IMG/VR virus record: IMGVR_UViG_3300014820_000003
Span: 1 to 42,272 of that record
From: a virus
Length of the DNA: 42,272 nt
Strand: one strand, 5' to 3'
Below, in pieces: positions 20,210 through 30,073 of the stretch. Under the pieces are notes generated by a model. The model made no database searches. It saw only the letters and a list, made by a program, of their open reading frames with translations, and had not been told where the DNA came from. Position 1 is the stretch's first letter; each line of letters starts with the position of its first letter. A program made the translations under genes and the position numbers.

Positions 20210-21337
20210 ATGGAAAATTTGTCCAGTGTTTGTTTTGTAGGAAAAATAGAACAAATTAATTCTATAGAAGGTGCAGATAAAATAGTACAAGCTGTTATTA
20301 GTGGGTGGGAATGTGTAATAGGGAAAGACCAGCATAAAGTTGGAGATCTTGTAGTCATAGCTACAACAGATGCTGTTATACCTTTTGAACTTGCGGAAAA
20401 TTTGGGAGTAACCTCCTATCTAAAAAATAGAAAAAAGACAGGACAATTAACTGTTAAGACTACTAAGTTGCGTGGAGTGTACAGCACTGCACTTATTATA
20501 AACGATAATATTATGCAATATAGACATTCTGAAGGAGAAGACTGCATGAGTAATTATAATATAGAAAAATACGAAGAACCTGCTGAAATTATACAAACTA
20601 TTTCTGGAAGAAAATTTCGTTATCATAAGAATCCAAATTTTCATGTATATTACAAATTTCCTAATTCCAAGAATGCTCCTGACATGTTCACTGAGGAAGA
20701 TGAAGTAATAATAACACGCAAATTACATGGAAGTAATGGACGTTGGGGAATAGTAAAAAAACCTAAATTATCTTTATTAGATAAAATTAAAAAACTTCTT
20801 GGAAATAAATCTATAGAATATTCTTATTGCTATGGTTCTCATGAAGTAGAAAAAGGTAGTGATTCACAAGGATTTTATTCAACTGATATATGGAGAGAAG
20901 TAGCAGATAAATTTTATATAAAAGAAAAGCTCTGGCAAATAGTGAAAAATTTAGATAGGCAAACAATTGGAAAAGGTATTATTATTTATGGGGAAGTAAT
21001 AGGAAATGGGGTACAGAAATATTATGATTATGGTTATAAAGAACGCAGAGTAAGATTTTTTGATATAAAACTTAACGATAGTTATGTAAATAATGAAATA
21101 TTTGAACAAATCTGCTCCTCTTTTTCATTAGAGAAAGTACCTGTTCTCTATAGAGGCAACTGGACTAAGGAAGGAGAGAACAAATTTCTTTTTGATAAAA
21201 TTAAGGACTCTAAAATATATCACGAAGGAATAGTAGTAAAACATATATCAGGGGATAGAAATAAAATATACAAGGTAATATCTCCTGCATACCTGGAATT
21301 TCAATCAAAAAAGGAGGATAGTACAGACTTTCATTAA
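20210..21337 (+). CDS. RNA ligase with N-terminal OB-like domain (Deinococcus Rnl-like)
   Basis: A 375-residue nucleotidyltransferase-type ligase. Motif I is ITRKLHGSNGRWG with the AMP-accepting Lys171. IIIYGEVIGNGVQKYYDYG is motif III and its surroundings, HEGIVVKHI motif IV, and KIYKVIS motif V. The first about 115 residues form a separate domain (SSVCFVGKIEQINSIEGADK, DLVVIATTDAVIP) as in the Deinococcus radiodurans Rnl group, which seals 5'-phosphate/3'-OH ends. Such ligases repair nicked or cleaved RNA, including tRNAs broken by host anticodon nucleases. A polynucleotide kinase gene, interrupted by a stop, and a metallophosphoesterase lie directly downstream, a common end-healing/sealing set. 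Confidence 0.85.
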   Translation: MENLSSVCFVGKIEQINSIEGADKIVQAVISGWECVIGKDQHKVGDLVVIATTDAVIPFELAENLGVTSYLKNRKKTGQLTVKTTKLRGVYSTALIINDNIMQYRHSEGEDCMSNYNIEKYEEPAEIIQTISGRKFRYHKNPNFHVYYKFPNSKNAPDMFTEEDEVIITRKLHGSNGRWGIVKKPKLSLLDKIKKLLGNKSIEYSYCYGSHEVEKGSDSQGFYSTDIWREVADKFYIKEKLWQIVKNLDRQTIGKGIIIYGEVIGNGVQKYYDYGYKERRVRFFDIKLNDSYVNNEIFEQICSSFSLEKVPVLYRGNWTKEGENKFLFDKIKDSKIYHEGIVVKHISGDRNKIYKVISPAYLEFQSKKEDSTDFH

Positions 21338-21429
21338 AATAAAACAACATGGAAAACTTATTATATAATTGAAAAGAGAAGAAATATTAGAATTACACAA
21401 TAAAAAACAAATTAAATTTTTAAATATAT

Positions 21430-21918
21430 ATGAATCAAAATTCAAAAAATACAACGAATCCCCTGAATAGTAACCCTAAAGTTATTATTTTACAGGGGAT
21501 TCCGTAACTATGTAGCGGAAAATCAACATGGATAAGGAAACATTGTCCTATGGATTCACAAGGATATAGGTATAAAATACATTCTTGTGATGTTATAAGA
21601 GAACAAATGTTCGGAAAGAAATACAAACACAATAATGCAGATGAATTAATAGTTTGGGAAACATTTTATACACTCATTAATAACTCTGTAATAGACACAG
21701 AAAGTTTCATTATAGATAATACTAATCTAAGACAGAAATATATTAATCAAATAATGTGCCGTCTAACAGACAACTATGAGATAGAAATTAAAAAGTTTTC
21801 TATTCCCCTATGGAAAGCCCAATTACGTAATTATCTAAGACGAATAAAAACAGGAAAATATATACCTAACAAAGTACTAAAAAACTTTTATACAAGATTT
21901 AAAAATTTAAACAATTAA
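21430..21918 (+). pseudogene. Polynucleotide kinase-like P-loop protein with in-frame TAA in the Walker A loop
   Basis: Read from ATG 21430, the product has a strand KVIILQGIP, then a TAA at 21505-21507, then Leu-Cys-SGKSTW and a full kinase remainder: SCDVIREQMFG, SFIIDNTNLRQKYI and IEIKKFSIPLW. This is the layout of T4 Pnkp-like 5' kinase domains, where the loop should read GxxxxGKST. Removing the 6 bases TAACTA gives GIPCSGKST, a perfect Walker A, in the same frame. The stop sits in the 11-base loop of a TTCCG/CGGAA hairpin. Either this is a fresh disruption, or recoding (readthrough or bypass) is used. The 122-residue product from ATG 21550 would lack the P-loop. Neighbours are the RNA ligase and a phosphoesterase. 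Confidence 0.65.
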
Positions 21919-21920
21919 GA

Positions 21921-22550
21921 ATGGAATTTTACTTTACAAGCGATAGTCATTATAATCATAAAAACATAGTGAGAGGAGTATCAGGTTGGGACAATAAAGA
22001 CAGGTGCAGAGACTTTGACACTTTAGAAGAGCATAATCAGGTATTAGTTGATAACATAAATAAAACAGTGGGAGAAAATGATATATTGTATCACGCTGGG
22101 GATTGGTCTTTTGGCGGTATACAATCAATCTATGAATTTAGACAACAAATAAAATGTAAAACAATACATTTCATAATAGGAAACCATGACCATCATATTA
22201 AAATGAATAGAGTACTTAAGATAGAAGAGGGATTTATGAATACTAAAAATTTGTTTACAACAGTGGACAAGCTTTTAGATAAAACTGTTAATGGTCAGAA
22301 TATGGTAATGTGTCACTATCCTTTAAGGTCTTGGTTAAATGGTTCTAAGGGTTCTTGGATGTTGTTTGGTCATACTCATGGCAGTTTACCTGAGTATAGT
22401 GCAGTGAAGGGTTATCCAAAAAAAAATGCAGAAATATTTAAAACTATGGATGTGGGAATTGATACTCACAAAGAGTTTAGACCTTACCATTTTGATGAAA
22501 TTGCAGAAATAATGCATAATAGATCAGACTTAAATGTTGACCACCATTAA
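21921..22550 (+). CDS. Calcineurin-like metallophosphoesterase
   Basis: A 209-residue enzyme with the motif series FTSDSHYNHKNI (Asp8, His10), HAGDWSFGG, FIIGNHDHH, VMCHYPL and LFGHTHGS. These are the five metal-binding motifs of the YfcE/phage phosphoesterase branch. TSDSHxxHxNI is characteristic of small phage-encoded members. It hydrolyses phosphomonoesters or diesters. Its position immediately after the ligase/kinase genes (2 bases) suggests the 3' end-healing or 2',3'-cyclic phosphate step, which is inference. Confidence 0.85.
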   Translation: MEFYFTSDSHYNHKNIVRGVSGWDNKDRCRDFDTLEEHNQVLVDNINKTVGENDILYHAGDWSFGGIQSIYEFRQQIKCKTIHFIIGNHDHHIKMNRVLKIEEGFMNTKNLFTTVDKLLDKTVNGQNMVMCHYPLRSWLNGSKGSWMLFGHTHGSLPEYSAVKGYPKKNAEIFKTMDVGIDTHKEFRPYHFDEIAEIMHNRSDLNVDHH

Positions 22551-28147: not shown

Positions 28148-30073
28148 ATGGATATTCGTGAACTAAAAGACAAAATACAAATTCCCTGGGGGGAAATAGG
28201 TTATATAACCTTTAAAAGAACTTATGCAAGACGTTTGAAAGAAGACGATAGAGATAGTAAAACAGAAGAATTTTGGCAAGTAGTTCAACGTGAATTAGAT
28301 GCAAGTGACAAGCAACTTGGAGTAGGATTTACAGAAAAAGAAAAACAAAGATATGCTGAAACAAGACTCCAACTTAAATGGAGCGTTGCTGGTCGCTTTA
28401 TGTGGCAATTAGGCACTAAAACAGTAGATAAATTAGGACTCCCATCCTTACAGAACTGTGCAGCAGTCGTAGTAAATGAACCTATAAGACCATTTACATG
28501 GACATTTGAAATGTTGATGTTAGGTAGTGGAGTAGGCTATAATATACAAAGACATAATGTATATCAATTACCTAAAGTAAAAAAGAAAGTAAAAATAATC
28601 AGACAAGATGATGAATCTGCTGATTTTATTGTTCCTGATACAAGAGAAGGATGGGTAAAACTTTTAGGTAAAGTACTTAAAGCTCATTTTTATACAGGTG
28701 ATGGATTCACTTATTCTACACAATTAATTCGTGGTAAAGGTGCTCCTATTAAAGGATTTGGAGGTACTGCTGCTGGGCCAGAAGAGTTATGTTGGGGAAT
28801 AGAAGAAATAAATAAAATTCTTAACAGTAGGAGTGGTAAGAAACTTCAACCTATAGATTGTCTTGATATTATGAATATCATAGGTTTTATAGTGGTATCA
28901 GGAAATGTTAGAAGAAGTGCTCAACTTGCAATAGGAGATTATGATGATATAGATTTTCTTATGGCTAAGAGATGGGATTTAGGAATTATTCCTAAGTGGA
29001 GAGGAATGAGTAATAATTCTATAGCTACTCCCGAAAATTTAGATAAACTTCCCGAGGAATTTTGGGAAACCTATCAACAAGGAGAGCCATACGGTCTAAT
29101 TAATATAGACCTATCCAAAGAAGTTGGTCGAACAGGAGAAACTCAGTACCCTGATCCTGATGTAGAGGTATATAATCCTTGTGGGGAGCAAGGTCTCTTT
29201 AATAAAGAAACTTGTTGCTTAGGACTTGTATTTTTACCTTCTATAGTTAGTTATGATGAGTTATTAGAGTGTTTGGCATTTTCTTATCGAATGTGTAAAC
29301 ACAGCTTATCTTTACATTGTAGTTTAAAAGACACTGAAGAAGTTGTTCATAAAAATATGAGGATGGGGATAGGTCTTCCAGGATATTTGCAAGCAACGGA
29401 AGAACAAAGGGTATGGGCAAAAGATGCCTATGAGTGGCTTCGTCAGTATGACGTAGAATACAGTGAAAAACATGGGTTTCCTGTTAGTAATAAACTTACT
29501 ACATCAAAACCTGATGGAACAGGGGCTTTACTTAGAGGAGTAACTCCAGGTTGTATGCCAAGTCCAGCCCCAAGTCAATACTATTGGAGAACTATGAGGA
29601 TTTCTTCTCATTCAAATTTAGTAGAAGTATGTAGAAGTCACGGGTATAAAATAGAACCTAATCTAAATATAGATGGTAGCGTAGATCATAATACAATGGT
29701 TGTATATTTTCCATGCAAATTAGCAGATGGAGTTCCTTACTCAAGTCAGTTTACTTGGAAAGAACAATTGGATACTATAAGAAGAGTTCAAAGAGAGTGG
29801 AGTGATAATTCTGTAAGTTGCACAGTATACTATAATAAAGAAGATATTCCTGAAATTAAAAAATATCTAAAGAAACACTTTAGAAATGAAATTAAGACAG
29901 TATCCTTCTTACTATCATTTGGTCATGGTTTTAAACAAGCTCCTTATCAGCCTCTAACAAAAGAAGAGTATGAAATAGAAGTAGGAAAAGTTAAACCTAT
30001 TACAAGTGTGGAGGTTAAAGAATTAGATTATGAATTAGAAGAATGTAGTAGTGGAGCATGTCCAATAAAATAA
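28148..30073 (+). CDS. nrdJ-like: Class II (adenosylcobalamin-dependent) ribonucleoside-triphosphate reductase
   Basis: A 641-residue monomeric class II reductase of the Lactobacillus leichmannii type. Cys104 (LQNCAAVVV), Cys345 and Glu347 (YNPCGEQ) and Cys356 (TCCLGL) occupy the places of leichmannii Cys119, Cys408, Glu410 and Cys419. The spacing of Cys345 to Cys356 is the same 11 residues. The C-terminal CSSGAC (Cys633, Cys638) is the swinging redox pair that is re-reduced by thioredoxin. TTSKPDGTGALLRG is the substrate-binding region. It makes dNTPs from NTPs without oxygen dependence but needs the host's B12 cofactor. It heads the transcription unit from the promoter at 28076 and supplies precursors to the replisome. 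Confidence 0.93.
   Translation: MDIRELKDKIQIPWGEIGYITFKRTYARRLKEDDRDSKTEEFWQVVQRELDASDKQLGVGFTEKEKQRYAETRLQLKWSVAGRFMWQLGTKTVDKLGLPSLQNCAAVVVNEPIRPFTWTFEMLMLGSGVGYNIQRHNVYQLPKVKKKVKIIRQDDESADFIVPDTREGWVKLLGKVLKAHFYTGDGFTYSTQLIRGKGAPIKGFGGTAAGPEELCWGIEEINKILNSRSGKKLQPIDCLDIMNIIGFIVVSGNVRRSAQLAIGDYDDIDFLMAKRWDLGIIPKWRGMSNNSIATPENLDKLPEEFWETYQQGEPYGLINIDLSKEVGRTGETQYPDPDVEVYNPCGEQGLFNKETCCLGLVFLPSIVSYDELLECLAFSYRMCKHSLSLHCSLKDTEEVVHKNMRMGIGLPGYLQATEEQRVWAKDAYEWLRQYDVEYSEKHGFPVSNKLTTSKPDGTGALLRGVTPGCMPSPAPSQYYWRTMRISSHSNLVEVCRSHGYKIEPNLNIDGSVDHNTMVVYFPCKLADGVPYSSQFTWKEQLDTIRRVQREWSDNSVSCTVYYNKEDIPEIKKYLKKHFRNEIKTVSFLLSFGHGFKQAPYQPLTKEEYEIEVGKVKPITSVEVKELDYELEECSSGACPIK

Follow-up and report, generated by a model that had tools for sequence, protein, structure and literature searches.

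The polynucleotide kinase gene of the phage sequence analysed here (IMG/VR record IMGVR_UViG_3300014820_000003, 42,272 nucleotides, referred to as the window) is interrupted by an in-frame TAA codon inside its Walker A loop. The same order of elements, a CCN codon (the Pro of GxP), a stop codon, a short gap and the P-loop, was shared by 33 distinct phage sites in at least five groups of P-loop proteins. The stop is in all likelihood the scar of a mobile homing cassette, over which the ribosome would pass by a programmed "stop hop". A hairpin upstream of the stop very probably makes the ribosome jump, and the enzyme would still be made intact. The sequences show a conserved geometry, a hairpin, an association with endonucleases, empty sites and purifying selection; the geometry, the reading frames and the dN/dS values together would require that coding resumes in one product.

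The interrupted kinase gene and its surroundings

The kinase ORF starts with the ATG at 21430 and reads M...KVIILQGIP up to the TAA at 21505-21507, which is followed by CTA (21508-21510) and by CSGKST from the TGT at 21511. Beyond the in-frame TAA the frame stays open to the terminal TAA at 21916-21918, and no further lesion was found in the gene. With X placed at the stop, the protein matched AAA_33 (1.3e-8) and PHROG 505, polynucleotide kinase (1.6e-20), across the kinase domain. Both the frame GIP-TAA-L-CSGKST and the polynucleotide kinase identity had been proposed in an earlier note on this DNA and were borne out. The features of the region are as follows.

20210..21337, + strand: RNA ligase, neighbouring gene (PF09414, PHROG 968)
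21369..21470, + strand: putative homing endonuclease remnant, C-terminal part (LKREEILELHNKKQIKFLNIYESKFKK...), in a different frame from the kinase, whose start it overlaps (HMM, tblastx)
21430..21504, + strand: kinase ORF part 1, from the ATG to the take-off codon, MNQNSKNTTNPLNSNPKVIILQGIP
21456..21465, + strand: 5' arm of the hairpin, GAATCCCCTG (fold and stem scoring)
21493..21502, + strand: 3' arm of the hairpin, CAGGGGATTC; its last base is the first of the take-off codon (equivalent covarying stems at other sites)
21502..21504, + strand: take-off codon CCG (Pro); CCG or CCT at 32 of 33 sites
21505..21510, + strand: six-nt gap TAA-CTA, the stop codon and the proposed landing codon CTA; 11 of 33 sites have TAACTA, more than any other gap
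21511..21918, + strand: kinase ORF part 2, resuming at TGT (CSGKSTW...; reading frame, profile matches)
21921..22550, + strand: calcineurin-like phosphoesterase, neighbouring gene (PF00149, PHROG 547; synteny)

TAA is an ordinary stop codon in this phage. It ends 26 of the 37 checked ORFs and TGA ends the other 11, and a reassigned TAA was rejected on that ground. ARAGORN found no tRNA in the window, and therefore no suppressor tRNA there.

Searches of IMG/VR with the window kinase found no close protein relatives and no copy of the exact DNA of the site, and no phage records resembling the window DNA were found. Relatives of the window RNA ligase and DNA polymerase were found, without a window-type kinase. 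The phosphoesterase also lies downstream of the kinase in L047 and L013; the latter was reached via the phosphoesterase and was the only such relative with the kinase, which is uninterrupted there. The relative of the window DNA polymerase in L016 (8001-10688, 59% identity) is about 2.7 kb long versus 1.9 kb, and therefore may hold an intron, an intein or another insert. The B12-dependent ribonucleotide reductase at 28148-30073 of the window was closest to those of Maribacter phage Panino (58%) and an uncultured spring phage; the match to the Maribacter phage suggests that the host belongs to the Bacteroidota.

Recurrence of the stop, the gap and the upstream hairpin

A scan of IMG/VR for P-loops of the form GxP-TAA-xx-SGK[ST] returned 37 stretches, mostly real P-loop genes that were open on both sides. 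Sites were added by a second scan of IMG/VR, with the gap length left free and TAA or TGA as the stop, and by a homology scan without any stop requirement, whose results included five interrupted genes. In the sites from the pattern scans the stop after GxP holds by construction, and it was likewise present in the five interrupted genes of the homology scan. The deduplicated set consisted of 33 sites, the window included, each with an open frame of at least 40 codons past the gap; L044 and L045 were left out because of their short downstream frames. At position 4191 of L044, GLP-TAA-CTT-RSGKTTF is followed by only 25 open codons, and this may be a match by chance or an additional hop site that also carries another lesion. 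Identical sites came from separate metagenomes, namely L048, L056, L058 and L059, and likewise L039, L064 and L068.

Of the sites, 16 were in kinases that carry an NTFTQEWEM motif and 10 in kinases whose C-terminal part is long; the others were in a T4-like kinase with a HAD phosphatase (L065), further PNK-like kinases (the window, L047, L061 and L069) and a non-kinase P-loop protein (L049 and L050). Kinases resembling NEDD4BP2/PNK are thus represented, and so is a protein of another kind. The non-kinase protein, at 11269 in L049 and on the reverse strand of L050 (about 1327 in the turned locus), reads GLP*PKAGKSTF, had no Pfam match and is not an obvious kinase; its stems were weaker and an endonuclease was not found nearby. 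Two more specific patterns gave no match in 84,980 bacterial and archaeal genomes. Inspection of a few isolate phage records revealed no cultivated phage whose gene is interrupted, and five of these records annotate the kinase as a single uninterrupted gene. When 1.16 Mb of the collected loci were scanned for strong stems that end at a stop codon past which the frame stays open, no convincing site outside P-loops was found: 25 of the 35 candidates were the known P-loop sites, and the others looked terminator-like or due to chance by eye. Most sites were collected by means of P-loop patterns, and the restriction to P-loops is therefore partly a matter of ascertainment.

The stop was TAA at 27 sites and TGA at 6. 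The gap was 6 nt long at 28 sites, 5 nt at two, 9 nt at two and 7 nt at one, and it always ended where the next codon completes GxPGSGKST. At 30 of the 33 sites the landing codon, the last of the gap, can pair with tRNA-Pro(UGG) if G-U pairs are allowed, as compared with 16% of codons expected in these genes, and this UGG anticodon may not be that of the hosts; take-off and landing codons could thus pair with the same peptidyl-tRNA. The three exceptions were ACA, a poor match to tRNA-Pro. The take-off codon was CCG at 18 sites and CCT at 14, and almost never CCA, whereas CCA accounted for 18 of 48 proline codons in intact homologues (P = 3e-4, a value that overstates independence as the sites are related). 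The tRNA would accordingly appear to leave a wobble-paired codon, CCG or CCT, for one that mostly ends in A.

A stop followed by C is a leaky context, and C was the base after the stop at 27 of the 33 sites. The residues before the stop were Val/Ile/Leu-Pro, and in E. coli termination is slow when Val-Pro or Ile-Pro precedes the stop (PMC3985003). By eye, the N-terminal peptides differed between the families.

Several sites deviated from the common form. L131 (1488-1494) and L133 have a 7-nt gap, TGAGCTA, with CTA as the landing codon, so that the hop would also change the frame. L077 (and L080, L081, L084 and L086) and L079 have the 5-nt gap TGACA with ACA as the landing codon, which fits tRNA-Pro poorly; landing there might rely on pairing at two of three bases, or a different tRNA might be used. 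The L077 frame closes after about 156 further codons, and the remainder lies in a second ORF. In the window, 21494-21507 reads AGGGG-ATT-CCG-TAA-C, which we take to resemble the RF2 frameshift site AGGGGG-TAT-CTT-TGA-C, and a Shine-Dalgarno-like effect could add to that of the hairpin.

The segment 21456-21502 of the window folds as a strong hairpin (z = -4.3, none of 200 shuffles as stable), with GAATCCCCTG / CAGGGGATTC as its ten basal pairs. Its stem score was 26, versus a maximum of 18.5 among 200 shuffles. Interrupted sites had a median stem score of 25.0; in 51 intact homologues, which lack the hairpin, the median was 10.0. At most sites 0 or 1 of 200 left-side shuffles reached the observed score, the exceptions being L049 and two sites whose stems are weak, L050 (score 12.5) and L069 (16). 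Pair position -4 occurs as A-T, C-G, T-A and G-C across the sites, and native arms averaged 25.3 versus 14.6 for arms exchanged between families. Judging from these comparisons, the upstream hairpin is under selection. The base of the stem reaches the take-off codon, and full closure would therefore be possible only once the tRNA has let go.

The earlier note had placed the stop in the loop of a small hairpin. This hairpin, TTCCG-TAACTATGTAG-CGGAA, occurs a single time in the window, at 21500-21520, and shares bases with the stronger upstream hairpin. It was rejected as a conserved feature, as comparable stems around the stop did no better across the sites than stems with permuted partners (79 of 500 permutations equally good); the conserved stem is instead the upstream one, which that note had missed.

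Homing endonuclease genes and cassette-free relatives

Homing endonuclease genes or their remnants flank 19 of 32 testable sites and none of 73 uninterrupted homologues within the DNA examined, so that the endonuclease is linked to the interrupted sites and absent from uninterrupted relatives. Complete endonuclease genes were located directly upstream at 16 of the 32 sites, and begin or end some 30-140 nt upstream. At 15 of these sites the product is a NUMOD3 / TnsA-like nuclease (about 236-317 aa), and at L069 it is an HNH nuclease; in L065 a NUMOD1 protein, which looks GIY-YIG-like by eye, lies behind the gene. Upstream remnants were identified in L061 (3.8e-14), L079 (1.5e-4) and the window (3.5e-4), and no endonuclease or remnant was detected at twelve testable hop sites. 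When compared with cultivated phages, the endonucleases gave partial matches only, mostly to the NUMOD3 part.

An HMM was built from 15 endonucleases beside other hop sites, and its best match in the whole window was the remnant (E = 3.5e-4, HMM positions 267-295 of 297), the next best having an E-value of 0.79. By tblastx, the tail of the complete endonuclease of L047 was 58% identical to window 21369-21446, collinear with the kinase and the phosphoesterase; the L047 order of endonuclease, kinase and phosphoesterase is that of the window with the remnant. The remnant probably represents the last 30 or so codons of the endonuclease; it is short, and its identity rests partly on position and synteny.

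Comparison of interrupted L053 with uninterrupted L137, whose flanks are 93% and 90% identical, showed that 1049 bp in L053 replace 36 bp in L137, from the start codon to the P-loop proline, and that similarity resumes exactly at the resume codon. The cassette accordingly measures about 1 kb, and its right edge coincides exactly with the resume codon. L151 and L141, one interrupted and the other not, are 99.2% identical downstream, and the interruption is therefore recent there. In the tree of the NTFTQ family there were about eight changes between the interrupted and uninterrupted states, at least six of them on well supported branches. Cassette-bearing members of the family have a longer N-terminus, which carries the left arm of the stem.

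The earlier note had taken close relatives with an intact loop as a sign of an assembly error. Intact P-loop homologues do exist, but as cassette-free empty sites, and that reading of them was misleading.

Mechanism, competing explanations and known systems

We propose that the P-loop codons of a phage kinase were the point of entry of a free-standing homing endonuclease gene, and that the cassette brought a new start region, the hairpin and a short stop-containing gap, with the Walker A glycine codon as its right edge. Termination after Val/Ile/Leu-Pro would be slow, and the peptidyl-tRNA-Pro, held by a weak wobble pair on CCG or CCU, would detach with the stop in the A site. The base of the hairpin, closing behind the ribosome, may then pull the mRNA forward, as in T4 gene 60. 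The tRNA would re-pair on CTA, CCA or a similar codon 5-9 nt downstream, and decoding would resume, so that the finished GxPxSGKST loop is normal and holds a single proline. If MobA and gene 60 are a guide, the gap would shield the cassette-bearing gene from the endonuclease. A short programmed bypass would pay the price of the cassette, which is a stop and a few extra bases. The window has presumably lost the endonuclease save for its last codons and kept the hop.

In favour of decay or artefact, meaning a dead gene or an assembly error, lesions typically include a stop at a catalytic motif, and IMG/VR yielded none of the closest relatives of the window itself. Against this stand the 33 recurrences, the identical sites in independent metagenome assemblies, the conserved hairpin, the window gene free of further lesions, and pairwise dN/dS values of 0.12-0.49 downstream of the stop (pairs with 43-70% amino-acid identity), which lie well below 1 but are rough values, synonymous sites being almost saturated. 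The stretch past the stop is thus under purifying selection, and we regard decay or artefact as very improbable; the earlier note had already doubted random decay, and the recent inactivation and assembly error that it listed do not fit these observations. Plain stop-codon readthrough, with an amino acid inserted at the stop and two extra residues in the P-loop, is improbable too. The 28 gaps of 6 nt are in frame, as are two more of 9 nt, and the leaky C after most stops would favour it, but gaps of 5 nt (L077, L079) and 7 nt (L131) are out of frame and therefore cannot be served by plain readthrough. In addition, the spacing of Gx4GK[ST] is strict, the P-loop would gain two to three residues, and the proline-compatible landing codon would have no explanation.

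Removal of the gap at the RNA level, in which the mRNA would be cut and rejoined, perhaps by RNA repair enzymes of the phage itself, draws on the RNA ligase gene that adjoins the kinase in the window. The gaps of 5 to 9 nt share no cleavage motif, the constraint on the landing codon would not be explained and there was no Rfam match at the site, making this the least probable reading. A two-part or regulated expression, in which the cassette explains only where the hop came from and the hop now serves as a switch that responds to release factor, tRNA-Pro or translational stress, is unlikely but deserves more weight than the others. The enzymes are kinases of the nucleic-acid-repair type with an RNA ligase adjacent, the hop was kept at the twelve sites where no endonuclease was detected, and the downstream parts are under selection. 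A hop that outlasts its endonuclease is equally expected from immunity or from difficult removal, however, and Rfam, terminator and promoter scans yielded nothing relevant and no regulatory feature. Bypass, one of the alternatives in the earlier note, is strongly supported by the 33 recurrent sites and the purifying selection downstream; that interpretation stands without its hairpin, which is not the conserved element, and had not seen the link to homing endonucleases.

The kind of event is already known from the bypass in T4 gene 60 with the homing endonuclease MobA (Bonocora et al. 2011, as described in PMC8300805 and PMC5009743), where closing of the base of the 5' stem-loop is thought to pull the mRNA (PMC5009743). 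The phage sites resemble gene 60 in the stop directly after the take-off codon, in a 5' stem-loop just upstream of take-off that is able to act as a motor, in the homing endonuclease next door and in the insertion in a functionally critical region of the gene. They differ in the gap (5-9 nt versus 50 nt), in the take-off Pro codon CCG/CCU with a near-cognate landing codon versus matched GGA codons, in the lack of a conserved take-off stem-loop with the stop in its loop, and in that no shared nascent-peptide signal was seen, unlike in gene 60. P-loop kinases and mostly a NUMOD3/TnsA-like nuclease are involved here, versus a topoisomerase and an HNH nuclease there, and there are at least 33 P-loop sites versus one gene 60 site.

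The stop hops engineered in E. coli (Weiss et al. 1987, as summarized in PMC5009743) are similar in that nine nt (codon, stop, codon) would give one amino acid and in their +5 and +6 events, whereas the phage sites are natural and recurrent and have an upstream hairpin and near-cognate landing codons. The mobile bypassing elements (byps) of Magnusiomyces mitochondria, as outlined in PMC5009743, are likewise short inserts tolerated by bypassing and are mobile, but they are mitochondrial, apparently independent of mRNA context, and tied neither to P-loops nor to a stop. A 2016 review knew of no natural in-frame stop hop and asked for shorter relatives of gene 60 (PMC5009743). No later report was found in the literature searched, which covers only a minority of subscription journals and preprints. 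New as far as found are the size of 5-9 nt, the proline hop, the P-loop location, the type of nuclease and the abundance.

The programmed +1 frameshift of prfB (RF2) appears to share a G-rich stretch, a slow stop followed by C and a forward slip of the P-site tRNA; the phage sites differ from it in the hop of 5-9 nt and in the paired hairpin, as prfB has a free Shine-Dalgarno-like sequence.

Beyond the window, it seems likely that the in-frame stop hop occurs in nature, is common among uncultivated phages and evolved repeatedly as a means by which homing endonucleases from more than one nuclease family establish themselves in the P-loops of essential enzymes without needing an intron or an intein, the edge of the cassette being the landing site. 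Very few natural cases of bypassing are known, and at least 33 sites are added here. These sites vary in gap length, landing codon, stop and stem and have cassette-free relatives as controls, so that the requirements of the hop would be readable from nature and testable. Gene callers will break such genes, and P-loop enzymes would therefore be missed or called pseudogenes in viral metagenomes. The proposed cassette would show how, without recourse to an intron or intein, an endonuclease can occupy the active site of a protein.
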